From a bacterium (GTDB taxonomy: Bacteria; Arandabacterota; Arandabacteria; Arandabacterales; Arandabacteraceae), in contig JAOZOU010000038.1 in the NCBI GenBank assembly GCA_029933125.1, positions 1-5,270 of the forward strand: 5,270 nucleotides of DNA, in the 5' to 3' direction. Shown here in pieces: positions 1-5,270 of this stretch. How positions within the stretch are numbered: the first letter of the stretch is position 1; every line of letters starts with the position of its first letter. The notes beneath the pieces are model-generated. The model had not been told where the DNA came from, searched no databases, and worked only from the letters and a program-made list of their open reading frames with translations. The translations under genes were made by a program, and so were the position numbers.

Positions 1-132
1 AAGGGAGGCGGCGAAAGGGGGGCGGAAGGTAGGAAGCCTAAATCGAGGGTTGGGAAGTATGGGGTTGTTCTGGCGTGCGTTTTAGTAGTTGTTACAGCTT
101 CTGTTGCTTTTGGGATGGCTTATGAGCCTCCT
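1..132 (+). other. Basic N-terminus plus signal peptide / membrane segment
   Basis: Residues 1-19 are rich in Gly, Lys and Arg, and residues 21-40 are a hydrophobic run dominated by Val, Ala and Leu. This is the n-region and h-region pattern of a Sec signal peptide or signal anchor, with the protein body outside. A possible signal peptidase site lies after Ala40 (G-M-A, then Y-E-P-P). The basic stretch is long and continues beyond the window, so the start codon is not visible. No ATG, GTG or TTG precedes the hydrophobic run in frame. GC content here (about 58% in the first 60 bases) is much higher than in the pro-region that follows. Confidence 0.8.
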
Positions 133-3100
133 AATATGGATTCTGAAGCAACAAGCACCTCGACAGGTACATCAACCTCAAAAACTATTAACATTTCGTA
201 TCTTATACAATATTCTGAAAAATATGATATTGACCCAATAACATCTCAAATTTCCGTAGATAACATTACATTATTTGGACATAGTTTTTTAGTGGCGGCA
301 TTAAATGATGTAAAGAATAACAAAAAGTTAGTATTATATGCAGATTATGATAGCGGTGATATTTATGACCATAGACCTTCACGAGAAGAAGTTATTGAAG
401 TCTTGAAGTCTGACCCAAAGCCATATCAAAAGATGAGCACGAGTCTTATAATGAAAATAAAAGAGGAGTTTGGAGAATTGCCCTCATTTAACGAATCTCA
501 GCTCCGAACTCCTATGATCATCTCACCTCTCCAAAAAAGCCTACCTGTAATGCTCATCGTAAACGATTCAACTAATTTGTCTAAATTAATTAATGTCGTA
601 AACACACACACAACCACCGAGAATTATAGTGTTTGGGATGGTTTAACGATAAAATTTGTCGCAACAGAACTCCCCTTACAACTGTTAGTTAGTTTAGCGA
701 ACTTGAGTTATGTGCAAACTGTATGGTATAACGGCGACGAGGTTGATATTAGTCTCGATGATTCTGTTCCAGCCGTCAATGGCGACGATGTTCATTACGC
801 TGGTATATGGGGAAGCTCTGCTGATGTTGGTGTTATTGATTCTGGAGTCGATAGTACACATCCTGATTTGCACTGCGTCATTGCGAGAGAGGATTTTACA
901 GATAAATTGTGGGATGGCTATGACTGGAATCCTGATGATACGCACGGACATGGTACGCATGTTGCAGGAATTGTTGGAAGCGCCGATTCGACATACGAAG
1001 GAATGGCGCCATATGCAGATATAATCAGTGCAAAGGTGACTCATGGTGGAGGAAAGTCAAACGATATAGATACCATAATAAGTGGGATTGATTGGGCAAT
1101 AACTCAAGGTGCTGATATAATACAAATGAGCATCAATATCTATGATGGCGGTGGCGCTACAGATGCGTCCCACGATCTATCAAAGTATGTAGATTATGTT
1201 GCGTATTCTAAGTATAAGACTGTTGTGGTATCTGCTGGGAACTATAAATCTGGTAATCCCTTTACAGTAATATTAGCACCTGCCGATGCTTATAATTGCA
1301 TTGCCGTTGGAGCAACAGATTCAGATTTTGACGCCGTTTGGAGGGAGAGTGGTCACGGTCCAACAACCGATGGCAGGTGTAAACCAGACGTGGTGGCGCC
1401 AGGTGAGGATATTAAGTCTTGCAATAACAATTGGTTGGAAACAGGCGATTATTTTGTTTCCAAGAGTGGAACAAGTATGGCAGCGCCACATGTATCAGGT
1501 GAAGCGGCGCTTTTGTTTGACTATGGTTATGTAGATCGGAGAATGATAAAGGCGGTTATTTTAAATTCTGCAACAAAACTATCTGACTGGTGGGGTCATC
1601 CATTAGATAACCATCAGGGTGCAGGGCAGATTGACGCCTACAAAGCATACGAAACTATTGGAGATGCAAATAAAGTTGCATGGAATTATTTTGATTCGAC
1701 TAGTGAAAATGAATATGAATATTTTACCATCAATATAGATAATGTGCCGACAACGTTGGATGTTACTTTAGTTTGGGAACGTCATGTGTCAAGTCACACC
1801 GCAACGCCACCTTCTTTAAACGATTTAGATTTATACTTATATCGAGGGAATGATGGCGATAATCCGTTATGGAATTCAGTAAGTTCTCATGACAACGTTG
1901 AGCACATACATGAGGAAATATCAGAGCCTGGAATGTATGTAATTAAAGTAATTCCATATTCATTAGATACAGGGGGCTGGGAATATAGCGCAATAGCGTT
2001 CAGTCATCCATATAGCTATCATGGTAATAACCCTCCGTTTTGCGATGGCACAGATACCAGTTGCGGTATTTATCCAAGTTGTGAAAACTGCAATAATGAT
2101 GATGGTTGCGAGGATTATGGTACTGGCTGTGAAGACAGGGATTATTATTGCAAGAACAATGAAGAAGGCTGCAAATACACTTACTCAAACAGGCACACAG
2201 ACTACTGCGATGACTGGGAATATTATTGTAAAGGAGATTCTGTTTGGAAGGATCACTTCTGCCACAACTTCTATTGTGACGGTGGAAAATGCAAGGATCA
2301 CACGAGTTGGAAAGACGATCAAGTGGTTGAAAACTGCAACGATAAAGATGGATGGAAGAACAAAGGAAGCCCTTATTCCTGCTGTGATGGCAACAAGAAA
2401 TGCACCTGTCAGGATCAGGAATACTGGGACTGGTACTGCTATGGAACTTCTTGCACGCATCAGGTACTGCCGGAAACAAGAATAGAAAAGACCAGTTGCG
2501 TAACCTGCGATGACGGAAACCCCTGCACAGAGGACACTTGCAGTGACGGGGTATGCATTCATGGGAAGTACTGCCCAGGAACGGACGAGGATTGTGGCTG
2601 CACCTCCTGCGAGAACTGCAATGACTATGACCACAACTACTGTGATGGAGACGCAGTCTGGTTTGAGGACTGGGGCTGTACCGATTACGAATGCAAAATC
2701 GTCGATACTGGGCTCGTCAAGGACTGCAACGACCTCGACGACTGGTACTGCAATGGCGACACGCTGGAGTACCGGGATTATTACTGCTCCGACGGCTCCT
2801 GTTCTTATTCCGTCACTGATTTGGAAAACTGCAACGATTACGATGAATGGGTAGACACCGGGAATAAAAGATGGATAACCGACCCAGCGAACGAGTGCAG
2901 GGAGAAAGAAGAGAAGGAACAGGATTACCACGACTACACTTGCTCTGGCGGTAAGGGAGGAAGTTGTGAATACAGCGTGACTGGGACACAGAGGGTAGAG
3001 ACTGGGAATACGAGGGACAAGCCCAACGGAACTGACTGCGGGCTCGACGACTACGACGATTTCGAGAATTATTGCAGTGGAGGAGGAGAAGAAGTCTGGA

Positions 3101-5270
3101 AGCACAGGCAGTTCCACGATTTCAATTGTGAAGCTGGAGAATGTAAAGATCACACGAGTTGGGAAGACGATCAGCTGGTTGAAAATTGCAATGACCGGGA
3201 CGATTACGATGACTGGGAGTACTATTGCAAAGACGATGAGGTCTGGCGGCACCAGCTCTTCCACGACTTCTCTTGTGATGGGGGAGCATGCGTCGAAGAG
3301 ACCAGCTGGGAAAACGAGGAGTTTGTTGAGGACTGCAATGATCGAGACTTCTACGATGAGTTCGTTTATTATTGCAAAGACGATGAGGTCTGGAAGCATC
3401 AGTTGTTCCACGACTTCTCTTGTGACAGTGGCTCATGTGTCGAAGAGACTTACTGGGTAAATGATGAGTTTGTTGAGGACTGCAATGATCGGGACGATTA
3501 CGATGACTGGGAATATTATTGCAAAGACGATGAAGCCTGGCGGCACCAGCTCTTCCACGACTTCTCTTGCGACGAGGGTTCATGCGTCGAAGAGACCTAC
3601 TGGGCAAATGATGAATTTGTTGAGGACTGCAATGATCAGGACTATTACACGGATTGGGAGTATTATTGCGATGGCAACGCGGTGAGGAGATTTAGGGAGT
3701 CCCATGATTTCTATTGTTTTGAGGGTTCATGTTTAGAGGACATCATCCCGGAGGATGAATTTGTGGAGGAATGCAATGACCTCGACGACTGGTACTGCAA
3801 CGGCAGCGACACGCGGGAATACCAGGATTATTACTGCTCTGACGGCTTCTGTTCTTATTCCGTCACTGATTTGGAAAACTGCAACGATTACGATGAATGG
3901 GTAGACACCGGGAATAAAAGATGGATAACCGACCCAGCGAACGAGTGCAAGGAGAAGGAGGAGAAGGAGCAGGAGTTTCACGACTTCTCTTGCTCTGGCG
4001 GTAAGGGAGGAAGTTGTGAATACAGCGTGACTGGGACACAATGGATAGAGACCGGAAACACGAGGGACAAGCCAAACGGAACTAAGTGCGGGTCTGACTA
4101 CTACGATGATTTCGAGAATTATTGCAGTGGAGGAGGAGAAGAAGTCTGGAAGCACAGGCAGTTCCACGACTTTTACTGCACTGCTGGCTCCTGTACGGAC
4201 CACACGAGCTGGACGGACGAGCAGTTTGTAGAGGACTGCAACGCTCTGGACGACTGGTACTGCAACGGCAGCGACACGCGGGAATACCAGGATTATTATT
4301 GCTACGATGGCTCCTGTTCTTATTCCGTCACTGATTTGGAAAACTGCAACGATTACGATGAATGGGTAGACACCGGGAATAAAAGATGGATAACCGACCC
4401 AGCGAACGAGTGCAAGGAGAAGGAGGAGAAGGAGCAGGAGTTTCACGACTTCTCTTGCTCTGGCGGTAGAGGAGGAAGTTGTGAATACAGCGTAACCGGG
4501 ACACAGTGGGTAAAGACTGGAGAGACGAGGGACAAGCCCGACGGGACTGACTGCGGTTGCACAGCAAATAATACACGGAAGGAATGTTCTGAAGGCACTT
4601 GTTCTGATACAGGGAAATGTAACGCGACAATTTGTAACGCAGATATTGCTTGCGACGGAAAAAAGCCAGGAGACCTTTGTGCCGCTGACAAAAGATGCAA
4701 TTCCACTTGCAATTGCGTTTTAGCGGAGCCAAAATTATGCACCGAGCCCGACCCGCCAGACCACGACTTTGGAATTGTTCGGCCTGGCAAGACGCGGACT
4801 TGGAGTTTTGAAATAGCCAACTGCGGAGACCCCGTCTCTACGCTGGGTTGGAGTGTGAGAGCGAGCGAGCCCTGGATTTCGGTCTCGCCTTCTTCAGGAA
4901 CGAACACAACCGTAACCGTGACAATTGACACACGGCTTCCAGAGGGGGGCGTAAAGACCGGCACAATTAACATTGCTTCAAACGGCGGGACGAAGAACGG
5001 CACGATTCGCGCGGAGGTCAAGTTAGAGACTGCACCGCCAGGAGAGGAATTTGCGACTTTCGCGACAACCGATGGCTTCTTTGAGAAGGTAGAAGCGGTG
5101 GTAGAGGAGACGCTGCCAGAAGAGGGCAAGCCTTCCGGTGTGGAGTTCCCGCACGGCTTCTTCTCGTTCAGGATAGAAAATCTCTCTGCAGAAAGCGTTA
5201 CAGTTGAAATCGAACTGCCGTCTGAGATGCCGGCTGGTGCGGAATATTGGAAGTACGGACGGACGCCAGA
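1..5270 (+). CDS. Giant secreted S8 subtilase with Cys-rich repeat stalk and surface-anchor domain (partial at both ends)
   Basis: A single frame is open from base 1 to the last complete codon at 5266-5268, giving 1756 residues with neither start nor stop in the window. The first in-frame ATG (115) lies inside the hydrophobic signal segment, so the true start is upstream. Domain order is signal segment, Ser/Thr linker, pro-region, peptidase S8 catalytic domain, beta-sandwich, Cys-rich modular repeats, BACON-like Ig domain, and the beginning of a choice-of-anchor U domain. S8 enzymes hydrolyse peptide bonds through an Asp-His-Ser triad, and all three residues are present. Secretion and cell-surface attachment are inferred from the signal segment, the disulfide-type repeats and the anchor-associated domain. 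The substrate is unknown; the stalk could place the protease away from the envelope or bind a partner. Subtilase identity is near certain, while the role of the repeats is unknown. The AT-rich protease region differs in composition from the rest of the gene. Confidence 0.96.
139..186 (+). other. Ser/Thr-rich low-complexity linker
   Basis: Residues 47-62 alternate Ser and Thr with a few Gly, Ala and Lys, directly after the signal segment. In archaeal surface proteins such stretches are flexible spacers and often O-glycosylated; glycosylation here is inference only. Confidence 0.6.
187..756 (+). other. Pro-region with I9-like inhibitor/chaperone domain
   Basis: About 190 residues separate the linker from the catalytic domain. 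The last part (about residues 181-252) has the beta-alpha-beta pattern of subtilase propeptides: a strand (L-P-V-M-L-I-V-N), a helix (S-K-L-I-N-V-V), a strand around L-T-I-K-F-V, a helix around L-Q-L-L-V-S-L-A, and a strand ending in V-Q-T-V-W-Y. It then leads into D-D-S-V-P-A-V-N-G, the usual entry to an archaeal subtilase domain. Such domains help the protease fold, inhibit it, and are cut off autocatalytically. Residues 63-180 match nothing I recognise. Seven N-x-S/T sequons lie at residues 64, 88, 164, 188, 192, 208 and 234, and the DNA is very AT-rich. Confidence 0.65.
766..1668 (+). other. Peptidase S8 (subtilisin-like) catalytic domain
   Basis: All signature blocks are present in order and at normal spacing. 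The Asp block is V-G-V-I-D-S-G-V-D, catalytic Asp280 (bases 838-840). The His block is H-G-H-G-T-H-V-A-G-I, catalytic His317 (949-951). The oxyanion Asn is in V-V-V-S-A-G-N, Asn414 (1240-1242). The Ser block is G-T-S-M-A-A-P-H-V-S-G, nucleophile Ser492 (1474-1476). Between them lie the conserved M-A-P-Y-A (335-339), A-P-A-D-A-Y-N-C-I-A-V-G-A (426-438) and K-P-D-V-V-A-P-G (461-468) segments. The length of about 300 residues is typical. Four cysteines (292, 433, 460, 474) could form two disulfides; Cys460 and Cys474 are close in sequence. No inactivating change is visible, so this should be an active endopeptidase. Confidence 0.97.
1669..2010 (+). other. Subtilase C-terminal beta-sandwich (KP-43-like)
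   Basis: Directly after the catalytic domain, residues 557-670 carry the landmarks of the beta-sandwich found downstream of KP-43-type and other large subtilases. These are a strand with L-D-V-T-L-V-W, then L-N-D-L-D-L-Y-L-Y, then D-N-V-E-H-I, then P-G-M-Y-V-I-K-V, and a closing strand around W-E-Y-S-A-I-A-F. In relatives this domain packs on the protease, often with calcium, and helps stability. The D-L-D and neighbouring acids fit that, but no metal site can be proven from sequence. The assignment is by remembered pattern. Confidence 0.75.
2041..2724 (+). repeat. Degenerate Cys-rich repeat region (N-terminal part of array)
   Basis: Residues 681-908 begin the cysteine-rich stalk with units that have drifted from the later consensus. 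Residues 736-778 form a recognisable C-type unit (D-D-W-E-Y-Y-C-K ... C-K-D-H-T-S-W) with an extra Cys in its H-F-C-H-N-F-Y-C segment. Residues 836-852 hold a different small motif, C-D-D-G-N-P-C-T-E-D-T-C-S-D-G-V-C, of a type widespread in extracellular Cys-rich proteins. Residues 873-908 form a short C-N-D-Y-D unit. A drop in AT content falls inside this stretch near 2460-2520. The last bases of the C-type unit (2290-2343) match 3142-3195 at 46 of 54 positions, so this part shares origin with the main array despite its different composition. Confidence 0.8.
2725..3186 (+). repeat. Cys-rich repeat block 1 (modules A-B-C)
   Basis: Residues 909-1062. Module A (909-943) starts C-N-D-L-D-D-W-Y-C and ends C-S-Y-S-V-T. 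Module B (944-1012) starts C-N-D-Y-D-E-W-V-D-T-G-N, has an acidic/basic middle (E-K-E-E-K-E-Q), then C-S-G-G-K-G-G-S-C-E-Y-S-V-T-G-T and a T-G-N-T-R-D-K-P-N-G-T tail. The C variant (1013-1062) has N-Y-C-S-G-G-G-E-E-V-W-K-H and F-H-D-F-N-C. Each module has four cysteines, which suggests two internal disulfides. The block is repeated 1047-1050 bases downstream at 3772-4236. Confidence 0.9.
2800..2899 (+). repeat. 100-base perfect repeat, copy 1 of 3
   Basis: Spans the end of module A and the first part of module B. It is identical, by letter comparison, to 3850-3949 and 4315-4414, including all synonymous positions. Confidence 0.95.
3187..3771 (+). repeat. Four tandem C modules (48-49 residues each)
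   Basis: The units start at residues 1063, 1112, 1161 and 1210 (bases 3187, 3334, 3481, 3628). The first three are exactly 49 residues and share cysteine spacing C-x12-C-x15-C-x4-C-x14. The fourth is 48 residues and more divergent (R-R-F-R-E-S-H-D-F-Y-C). By direct count, units 1 and 3 agree at 43 of 49 residues, units 2 and 3 at 41 of 49, and units 1 and 2 at 39 of 49. The first and third being closest suggests duplication of pairs, or gene conversion, rather than stepwise copying of neighbours. The modules are strongly acidic and aromatic. The function is unknown; an extended rigid stalk or ligand-binding array is possible. Confidence 0.92.
3772..4236 (+). repeat. Cys-rich repeat block 2 (modules A-B-C)
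   Basis: Residues 1258-1412 repeat the A-B-C order of block 1 with module lengths 36, 69 and 50. Module A has one residue more than in block 1 (C-N-G-S-D-T-R against C-N-G-D-T-L). Long stretches are identical to block 1 at the DNA level, for example 4108-4169 matches 3058-3119 without mismatch. The C variant of both blocks keeps the unusual G-G-G-E-E-V-W-K-H-R-Q segment, so A-B-C was copied as one unit of about 460 bases. Confidence 0.9.
3850..3949 (+). repeat. 100-base perfect repeat, copy 2 of 3
   Basis: Starts 1050 bases after copy 1, so the frame is kept. The match with copy 3 continues to base 4003, making 154 identical bases. Confidence 0.95.
4237..4551 (+). repeat. Cys-rich repeat block 3 (modules A-B, no C)
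   Basis: Residues 1413-1517 hold module A (36 residues) and module B (69 residues), nearly identical to block 2 but without a following C module. The tail T-G-E-T-R-D-K-P-D-G-T-D-C runs straight into the terminal Cys-rich cap. Bases 4315-4468 are identical to 3850-4003, a 154-base perfect match offset by 465 bases. The copy could have arisen by unequal exchange that ended at the module B/cap junction. Confidence 0.9.
4315..4414 (+). repeat. 100-base perfect repeat, copy 3 of 3
   Basis: Starts 465 bases after copy 2 (155 codons). The match with copy 2 continues to base 4468, where G-G-K changes to G-G-R. Confidence 0.95.
4552..4740 (+). other. Terminal Cys-rich cap
   Basis: Residues 1518-1580 hold 12 cysteines in a pattern unlike modules A-C: C-G-C-T-A-N-N-T, E-C-S-E-G-T-C, T-G-K-C-N-A-T-I-C, A-C-D-G-K-K-P-G-D-L-C, then C-N-S-T-C-N-C. 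It lacks the W/Y-rich core of the repeats and joins them to the Ig-like domain. From memory, similar caps follow the same kind of repeat in other archaeal surface proteins. N-x-S/T sequons occur at N1523, N1541 and N1567. The function is unknown; it is probably a disulfide-stabilised end piece. Confidence 0.7.
4741..5028 (+). other. BACON-like Ig-fold domain
   Basis: Residues about 1581-1676 show D-F-G-I-V-R-P-G-K-T (typical first strand), W-S-F-E-I-A-N-C-G-D, then L-G-W-S-V and the diagnostic P-W-I-S-V-S-P-S-S-G-T. These are followed by alternating strands (V-T-V-T-I-D) and G-T-I-N-I-A-S-N-G-G. This is the signature of BACON and related Ig-like beta-sandwich domains of extracellular proteins, which may bind glycans or act as spacers. 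It starts right after the Cys-rich cap and leads into the anchor domain, so a spacer role is as likely as binding. Confidence 0.75.
5044..5270 (+). other. Choice-of-anchor U domain, truncated by window end
   Basis: From residue 1682 the sequence runs through T-T-D-G-F-F-E-K, then G-V-E-F-P-H-G-F-F-S-F-R-I, then V-T-V-E-I-E-L-P and P-A-G-A-E-Y-W-K-Y-G-R-T-P. This order (F-P-x-G-F-F-S-F, a strand pair, then Y-x-K-Y-G-x-T-P) is what I recall for the choice-of-anchor U family, which sits just before C-terminal sorting signals of various kinds in bacterial and archaeal surface proteins. The second half of the domain and any anchor lie beyond base 5270. Confidence 0.8.

Follow-up and report, generated by a model that had tools for sequence, protein, structure and literature searches.

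A putative archaeal subtilisin-like protease on a long cysteine-rich stalk shared with unrelated peptidases

Here, we analysed a 5,270-bp stretch of DNA (hereafter the window), which is one whole contig (C79) of a 3.23-Mb, 176-contig bacterial genome bin. Our analyses suggest that its gene probably encodes a secreted, surface-tethered subtilisin-like protease of Syntropharchaeia, carried on a protease-displaying stalk cassette and placed in this bin by mis-binning. A wider proposal, to which we give about an even chance, is that S8, C1, C11/C14 and C25 proteases of Syntropharchaeia share one surface mount, an undescribed stalk of disulfide-rich beta modules, and that the window holds its longest form.

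A single frame without a stop codon occupies positions 1-5268 of the forward strand (1756 codons) and is open at both contig ends. Since it contains no in-frame ATG, GTG or TTG before nt 115, the gene must begin outside the contig, further upstream. The domain order is a signal or membrane segment, an S8 subtilase domain, a PPC-like domain, the Cys-rich stalk, a BACON domain and a choice-of-anchor-U domain of which the first half is present, with the following features:

64..120, + strand: hydrophobic signal-peptide or membrane segment (aa 22-40) behind a basic N-region; 19-residue Kyte-Doolittle mean 2.6
121..765, + strand: N-terminal region of ~230 residues between the signal segment and S8
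823..1626, + strand: Peptidase S8 catalytic domain, residues 275-542 (PF00082, 1.3e-48)
838-840, 949-951, 1240-1242 and 1474-1476, + strand: S8 residues D280, H317, oxyanion N414 and S492, respectively, in standard motifs
1678..2016, + strand: PPC-like beta domain, C-terminal to S8 (PF04151, E 0.0015, under the cut-off; alignment to 3afg)
2041..4716, + strand: Cys-rich stalk of ~890 residues with head, 16 modules (W, Y and T types) and cap, delimited by Cys content, repeats and relatives
2756..3055, + strand: long repeat (Y and T modules), first copy; further copies at 3806-4105 and 4271-4570
3043..3675, + strand: tandem W modules of 49 aa with four Cys each, at 147-nt spacing (repeat family D2)
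4552..4716, + strand: stalk cap, CGCTANNT...CNSTCNC in the window, conserved at the stalk end in relatives
4738..5025, + strand: BACON Ig-like domain (PF19190, 27.0 bits, cut-off 25)
5128..5265, + strand: choice-of-anchor U, first half, ended by the contig edge (NF041766, 44.1 bits)

The catalytic half bears out the original prediction of a complete S8 protease with all catalytic residues. The PF00082 match reaches 166 bits against a cut-off of 21.8 (171 bits in a genome-wide search), the domain aligns to 3afg with an E value of 4.5e-38, and D280, H317, N414 and S492 line up with the catalytic and oxyanion positions of that structure. By its residue content, the window protein is an active-type member of the S8 family (subtilases). 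The PPC-like domain could be aligned both to the C-terminal domain of 3afg and to L112, an archaeal relative described below. The N-terminal region matches no Pfam family above its cut-off and, judging by its position, is probably a propeptide.

Downstream of this half, the stalk region contains 93 Cys per 903 residues, and its modules are unusually rich in Asp/Glu (25% across the region), Tyr, Trp and Phe. We derived the grammar of the stalk by comparing the window with its relatives and counted module anchors by motif. The head carries the motif CxGTDTSCGIYPxCENCN..., which is absent from some relatives (e.g. L112), and is followed by modules of the W type (DYDDWEYYCKGDEVWKRRLFHDFYCDGGSCTDHTSWVDDQLVENC), the Y type (DGWYCNGDxREYRDYYCSGGSCTYTVTSSENC) and the T type (DGWVDTGNTRWVDDPANECKEKEQKEQEYRDYTCSGGSCTYSVTGTQW...). 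The cap, whose family form is CTANNTLKRC...CNSTCKC, closes the stalk in L046, L048, L049, L053, L054 and L055 as well, and head and cap are both conserved among Syntropharchaeia proteins. All three marks of the family, namely the head CxGTDTSCGIYPxCENC, the module motif [D/N][F/Y]xCxxGxC and the cap CTANNT...CNSTCKC, occur in the window. Its 16 module anchors compare with at most 9 in any other stalk protein, the family range being 1 to 16. The array had been predicted to consist of four-cysteine modules, which holds for the tandem 49-residue units but not for the array as a whole, as it combines several types (head, W, Y, T and cap), some of them without four Cys. The three ~300-nt copies are 88-91% identical in DNA, and these blocks, together with the 147-nt tandem units, point to internal duplication. 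The regularity of the stalk repeats is far beyond chance.

In profile searches, no Pfam or NCBIfam family covered the stalk; TIGR04201, the NCBIfam model of myxobacterial Cys repeats, did not match it, and a W-module profile retrieved no PDB sequence. Dicty_CTDC (PF00526) aligned to 21 residues only, with 21.1 bits (under the cut-off of 27), and weak Pfam matches to AAA_28, DUF2249 and Crystall_2 were dismissed as composition effects. Haem binding, as in the multihaem cytochromes of ANME archaea, was rejected because CxxCH occurs nowhere in the frame.

AlphaFold models were built from window and locus sequences. Three tandem W modules (nt 3199-3642) were modelled with a pLDDT of 93.5, a pTM of 0.64 and three strands per module, and a W-Y-T-cap model was all-beta with a pLDDT of 82 and a pTM of 0.50; at pTM values of 0.50-0.64, the module-to-module geometry is uncertain. 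A Foldseek search with both models gave no match at E <= 0.001. The best rows from VIA-align had Z scores of 2.3-3.4, all weak, and absence of a family from VIA-align proves nothing. Among them, the G5/E-type beta stalks (SasG and Aap) aligned with a Z of 3.4 over 51 residues at an rmsd of 4.1, and also with a Z of 2.6; the likeness of the stalk to these freestanding beta modules of staphylococcal stalk proteins may be taken as an analogy alone. The stalk modules are thus predicted to be three-stranded beta units without a clear solved relative.

The C-terminal part agrees with the anticipated Ig-like and anchor-associated domains: the former scores above the cut-off of BACON_2, and the latter exceeds its NF041766 cut-off of 32, although merely its first half (positions 1-46 of 92) lies on the contig. 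The window BACON is 50% identical to a domain encoded in the Methanophagales genome G044 (L157:522-1511, - strand), in a protein that combines a cohesin-like region (recognized by eye), BACON and a hydrophobic segment with an Arg/Lys tail, and that is possibly a surface scaffold. In L127 and L156, a full choice_anch_U domain is followed at the C-terminus by a hydrophobic segment and an Arg cluster, and the L156 tail weakly resembles VPXXXP-CTERM (17 bits, cut-off 30). By comparison with these two proteins, the window gene may have its C-terminal membrane or sorting tail beyond the contig end. L156 (1034-5428, + strand, Methanophagales RS_14_10) is itself a putative metalloprotease of the MXAN_6640 family with choice_anch_U and without the stalk, that is, another surface-anchored protease. 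Other C-terminal endings also occur, as seen in L108, L116, L119, L120 and L122: in many stalk proteins the terminus is a CFI-box-CTERM-type domain (CFIATAAYGTPLH...), and others share a terminal YTYPCxGTGGHxE...WIPAIRL domain. Taken together, the signal segment, the S8 motifs and the anchor half-domain are consistent with the earlier suggestion of a secreted, probably surface-tethered, active-type S8 protease on a long Cys-rich arm.

Relatives were sought with a DNA pattern for D[FY]xCxxGxCxYxVT, of which the window contains three occurrences and 200 shuffled versions contain none. Across 84,980 species genomes, it retrieved 16 stretches, most of them from archaea (Methanophagales/ANME-1, LH_S14 and several lineages of DPANN); two of them (L043 and L050, with frames of 60-64 residues) look like chance matches. 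The stalk is present in 9 of 58 Syntropharchaeia genomes, and a 392-genome sample of the phylum yielded the identical nine and none besides. Given this patchy presence, the stalk is not essential. The scanned DPANN proteins carry related single modules with Ig, SdrD or MopE domains, and none of them matched a peptidase. A 0.6-Mb MAG labelled 'bacterium' encodes a 1169-aa protein with 149 Cys (L044:3-3509, + strand), in which T and W modules stand amid other Cys-rich repeats. The whole window protein had no close relative in genome or viral contigs, the C-terminal part and the repeat alignment had no match among viral contigs, and searches of phage DNA, phage proteins and plasmid proteins returned no matches.

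The S8-plus-repeat order, for which a search of archaeal genomes had been proposed as a check, was found in three further Syntropharchaeia genes from independent assemblies, one gene each: L112 (1996 aa), L118 (776 aa) and L124 (971 aa). The same stalk comes after C1 (papain) peptidases in L110, L111 and L126, after C11 (clostripain) in L110 and L117 (the latter also with C14) and after C25 (gingipain) in L120 and L125, and it occurs with NosD/beta-helix domains in L122 and L127. Two of these proteins combine peptidases within one chain. L117 (5577-11966, - strand, ANME-1 AG-394-G06; 2130 aa) contains a caspase-like C14 domain, clostripain C11, PEGA, BACON and the Cys stalk, and in L110 (4534-9243, - strand, Methanophagales CSMAG_2415) papain C1 and clostripain C11 precede the stalk. 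In 18 stalk proteins the N-terminal part is intact, and by raw count 10 of them, the window included, have a peptidase. The remaining eight (L108, L109, L113, L114, L116, L119, L122 and L127) have no recognizable one, so the stalk is not protease-specific; moreover, because most S8, C1 and C25 proteins of the nine genomes are stalkless, the association runs from stalk to peptidase and not the reverse. In the S8 tree, the stalk-bearing domains fall in three places (the window with L112, L118 with a stalkless protein, and L124 with others), which implies that the joining recurred. Counting S8 together with C1, C11 and C25, at least about six separate fusions of the cassette to peptidases appear to have taken place.

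In the mechanism we propose, the protein would be exported and its N-terminal pro-region then removed, leaving an active S8 domain with its PPC-like domain at the outer end of a 16-module arm. The modules, predicted to be built of strands, would be disulfide-bonded and give the arm a rod shape, and the cap, the BACON and choice-of-anchor-U domains and a putative C-terminal membrane or sorting tail would close it. Because the strands of a module are odd in number, its entry and exit would lie at opposite ends, suiting end-to-end stacking, and at ~4-5 nm each, 16 modules might reach very roughly 65-80 nm. Stiffened by disulfides, such an arm would hold the enzyme outside the S-layer or sheath. 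Since the stalk has repeatedly been joined to S8, C1, C11 (with C14 in one case) and C25 domains, its most likely job is protease display: the enzyme would be presented stably beyond the S-layer or sheath, distant from the cell's own surface proteins, and may digest proteins of the consortium matrix or process surface proteins. The original prediction had named S-layer trimming, peptide digestion and the processing of neighbouring proteins as candidate roles.

The main rival to this model holds that the Cys-rich array is not a spacer but serves binding or targeting, with acidic, aromatic modules docking the protease to a polymer. Candidate targets would be the sheath, S-layer glycan, protein aggregates or the partner cell, and the peptidase would act on the bound material. 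The abundance of Asp/Glu, Tyr, Trp and Phe in the modules, the conserved mixture of module types and the presence of the same array with NosD beta-helix domains are in keeping with docking, as are the documented existence of ANME-1 sheaths and the importance of disulfides in keeping the sheath intact in related systems such as Methanospirillum (PMC11576556). However, the modules show no likeness to known binding modules in Pfam, NCBIfam or PDB sequences, and a module number varying from 1 to 16 suits a spacer equally well as a multivalent binder. On this evidence, we regard docking as conceivable, yet rather unlikely.

With 1907 bits for its rpoB against the bacterial model (cut-off 801), the bin is bacterial, so that the assembly gives no support to an archaeal origin of the contig, which is argued from composition and relatives. 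With bin composition measured on sampled stretches (45 equal chunks), the window has a GC content of 0.463 compared with 0.495 +/- 0.009 (s.d.) for the bin, a tetranucleotide distance of 0.341 compared with a maximum of 0.311 among the 45 chunks, and a Leu TTA usage of 0.49 compared with 0.04. The composition distance of the protease half is 0.224 to the archaeal genome G045 and 0.449 to its own bin. In the S8 tree, the window domain pairs as sister with the S8 domain of L112, an archaeal stalk protein (99/98), separate from the bin's own S8 domains, and the window stalk matches Methanophagales modules at 63-74%. The stalk was absent from all 40 examined relatives of the bin, and choice_anch_U was found nowhere else in the bin nor in seven other genomes of its phylum. 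The archaeal character suggested in the original prediction is therefore upheld, as Syntropharchaeia are indicated alike by composition and codon usage, by the S8 tree, by the stalk matches and by the C-terminal domains. The contig is very probably mis-binned, its likely source being ANME-1/Methanophagales or near kin.

Alternatively, the gene could genuinely belong to the bacterial bin as an archaeal surface protease gained by recent horizontal transfer. The binner did assign the contig to this bin, and a recent acquisition would likewise leave a foreign composition. Nevertheless, the 5.27-kb contig holds just this gene, its protease half is archaeal in composition, the phylum shows no other choice_anch_U, and the bin's own S8 proteins end in T9SS-like tails that score at or just below the cut-off. 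One of these proteins (G000:C23, L016:4324-11820, - strand) is 2498 aa long, has four choice_anch_D stretches and ends in a T9SS-type tail. Furthermore, a comparable case exists in L127 (857-3574, - strand, DQCG01000466.1, the contig of L049), where a gene with the stalk and choice_anch_U lies on a 5.15-kb contig in a Phycisphaerales bin; its composition distance is 0.167 to G044 and 0.271 to its own bin, and this contig is probably mis-binned as well. We thus consider horizontal transfer improbable and mis-binning the preferred reading. As single-gene repeat contigs get mis-binned, the bin is no safe guide to the host of genes of this kind.

Near the start of the stalk, at nt 2149, GC3 steps from 0.32 to 0.59 (LR 125; permutation maximum 17), and L112 has the same step at its own stalk, in agreement with movement of the cassette as DNA and with a possible contribution from module-specific codon constraints. 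The sharpness of this step and the proneness of repeats to mis-assembly might also suggest an assembly chimera in which an S8 gene was fused to a repeat gene unrelated to it, but the frame is unbroken, the sister S8 gene has the step too, and we reject this very remote scenario because S8 is followed by this stalk in three other assemblies as well.

Stalked S8 proteases as such have precedents. Gram-positive cell-envelope subtilases (lactocepin/PrtP and the C5a-peptidase type) unite S8, a long extracellular stalk and a C-terminal anchor in one chain. The window differs from the lactocepin type, which has a stalk of A, B and helical domains without Cys repeats, an LPXTG sortase anchor and a bacterial host. 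In Staphylothermus marinus, the STABLE protease sits on the tetrabrachion stalk, and nutrient and surface-processing roles have been proposed for it (PMC5744192). As in the window, a subtilisin-family protease is thereby placed on a long archaeal surface stalk, but STABLE is a separate protein on a 70-nm alpha-helical coiled coil (PMC5744192), whereas the window encodes a single chain with a Cys-rich stalk of modules predicted to be all-beta. TraA of Myxococcus joins PA14 to Cys-rich repeats (TIGR04201), proposed to form a rigid stalk, and to MYXO-CTERM (PMC3325183). It resembles the window in presenting an N-terminal domain on Cys-rich tandem repeats and has a C-terminal sorting tag; it differs in its repeat family, its lectin-like rather than proteolytic head and its bacterial origin. 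In the same archaea, the accessible part of an ANME genome survey (Chadwick et al. 2022) describes the tethering of surface proteins by dockerin and cohesin (PMC9012536), likewise a modular way of tethering extracellular proteins, which unlike the single chain of the window relies on non-covalent pairing modules; that part mentions neither the Cys-rich stalk nor stalked proteases, and the word 'protease' does not appear in it. The closest counterparts, L112, L118 and L124, have the same stalk type and cap but 3-6 modules instead of 16 and other C-terminal domains, and two of their three S8 domains belong to other S8 clades. With these three genes and the conceptual precedent of STABLE/tetrabrachion, the architecture does not stand alone, contrary to what was originally supposed. 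A literature search of mainly freely available papers found no account of the stalk family. For an S8 protease carried by a surface stalk in archaea there is hence a precedent, while neither this family of stalks nor its use by peptidases of unrelated families seems to have been described; the novel part is a protease mount common to unrelated peptidases.

ANME-1 archaea and their relatives live in dense syntrophic consortia, in which matrix processing and protein scavenging are largely open questions. The independent joining of the cassette to at least four unrelated peptidase families suggests that these archaea keep digestive or processing enzymes some way off the cell. The stalk family provides a sequence marker for retrieving such surface proteins from metagenomes and, if our reading is correct, would represent a modular array for surface proteolysis in archaea that oxidise methane or alkanes.
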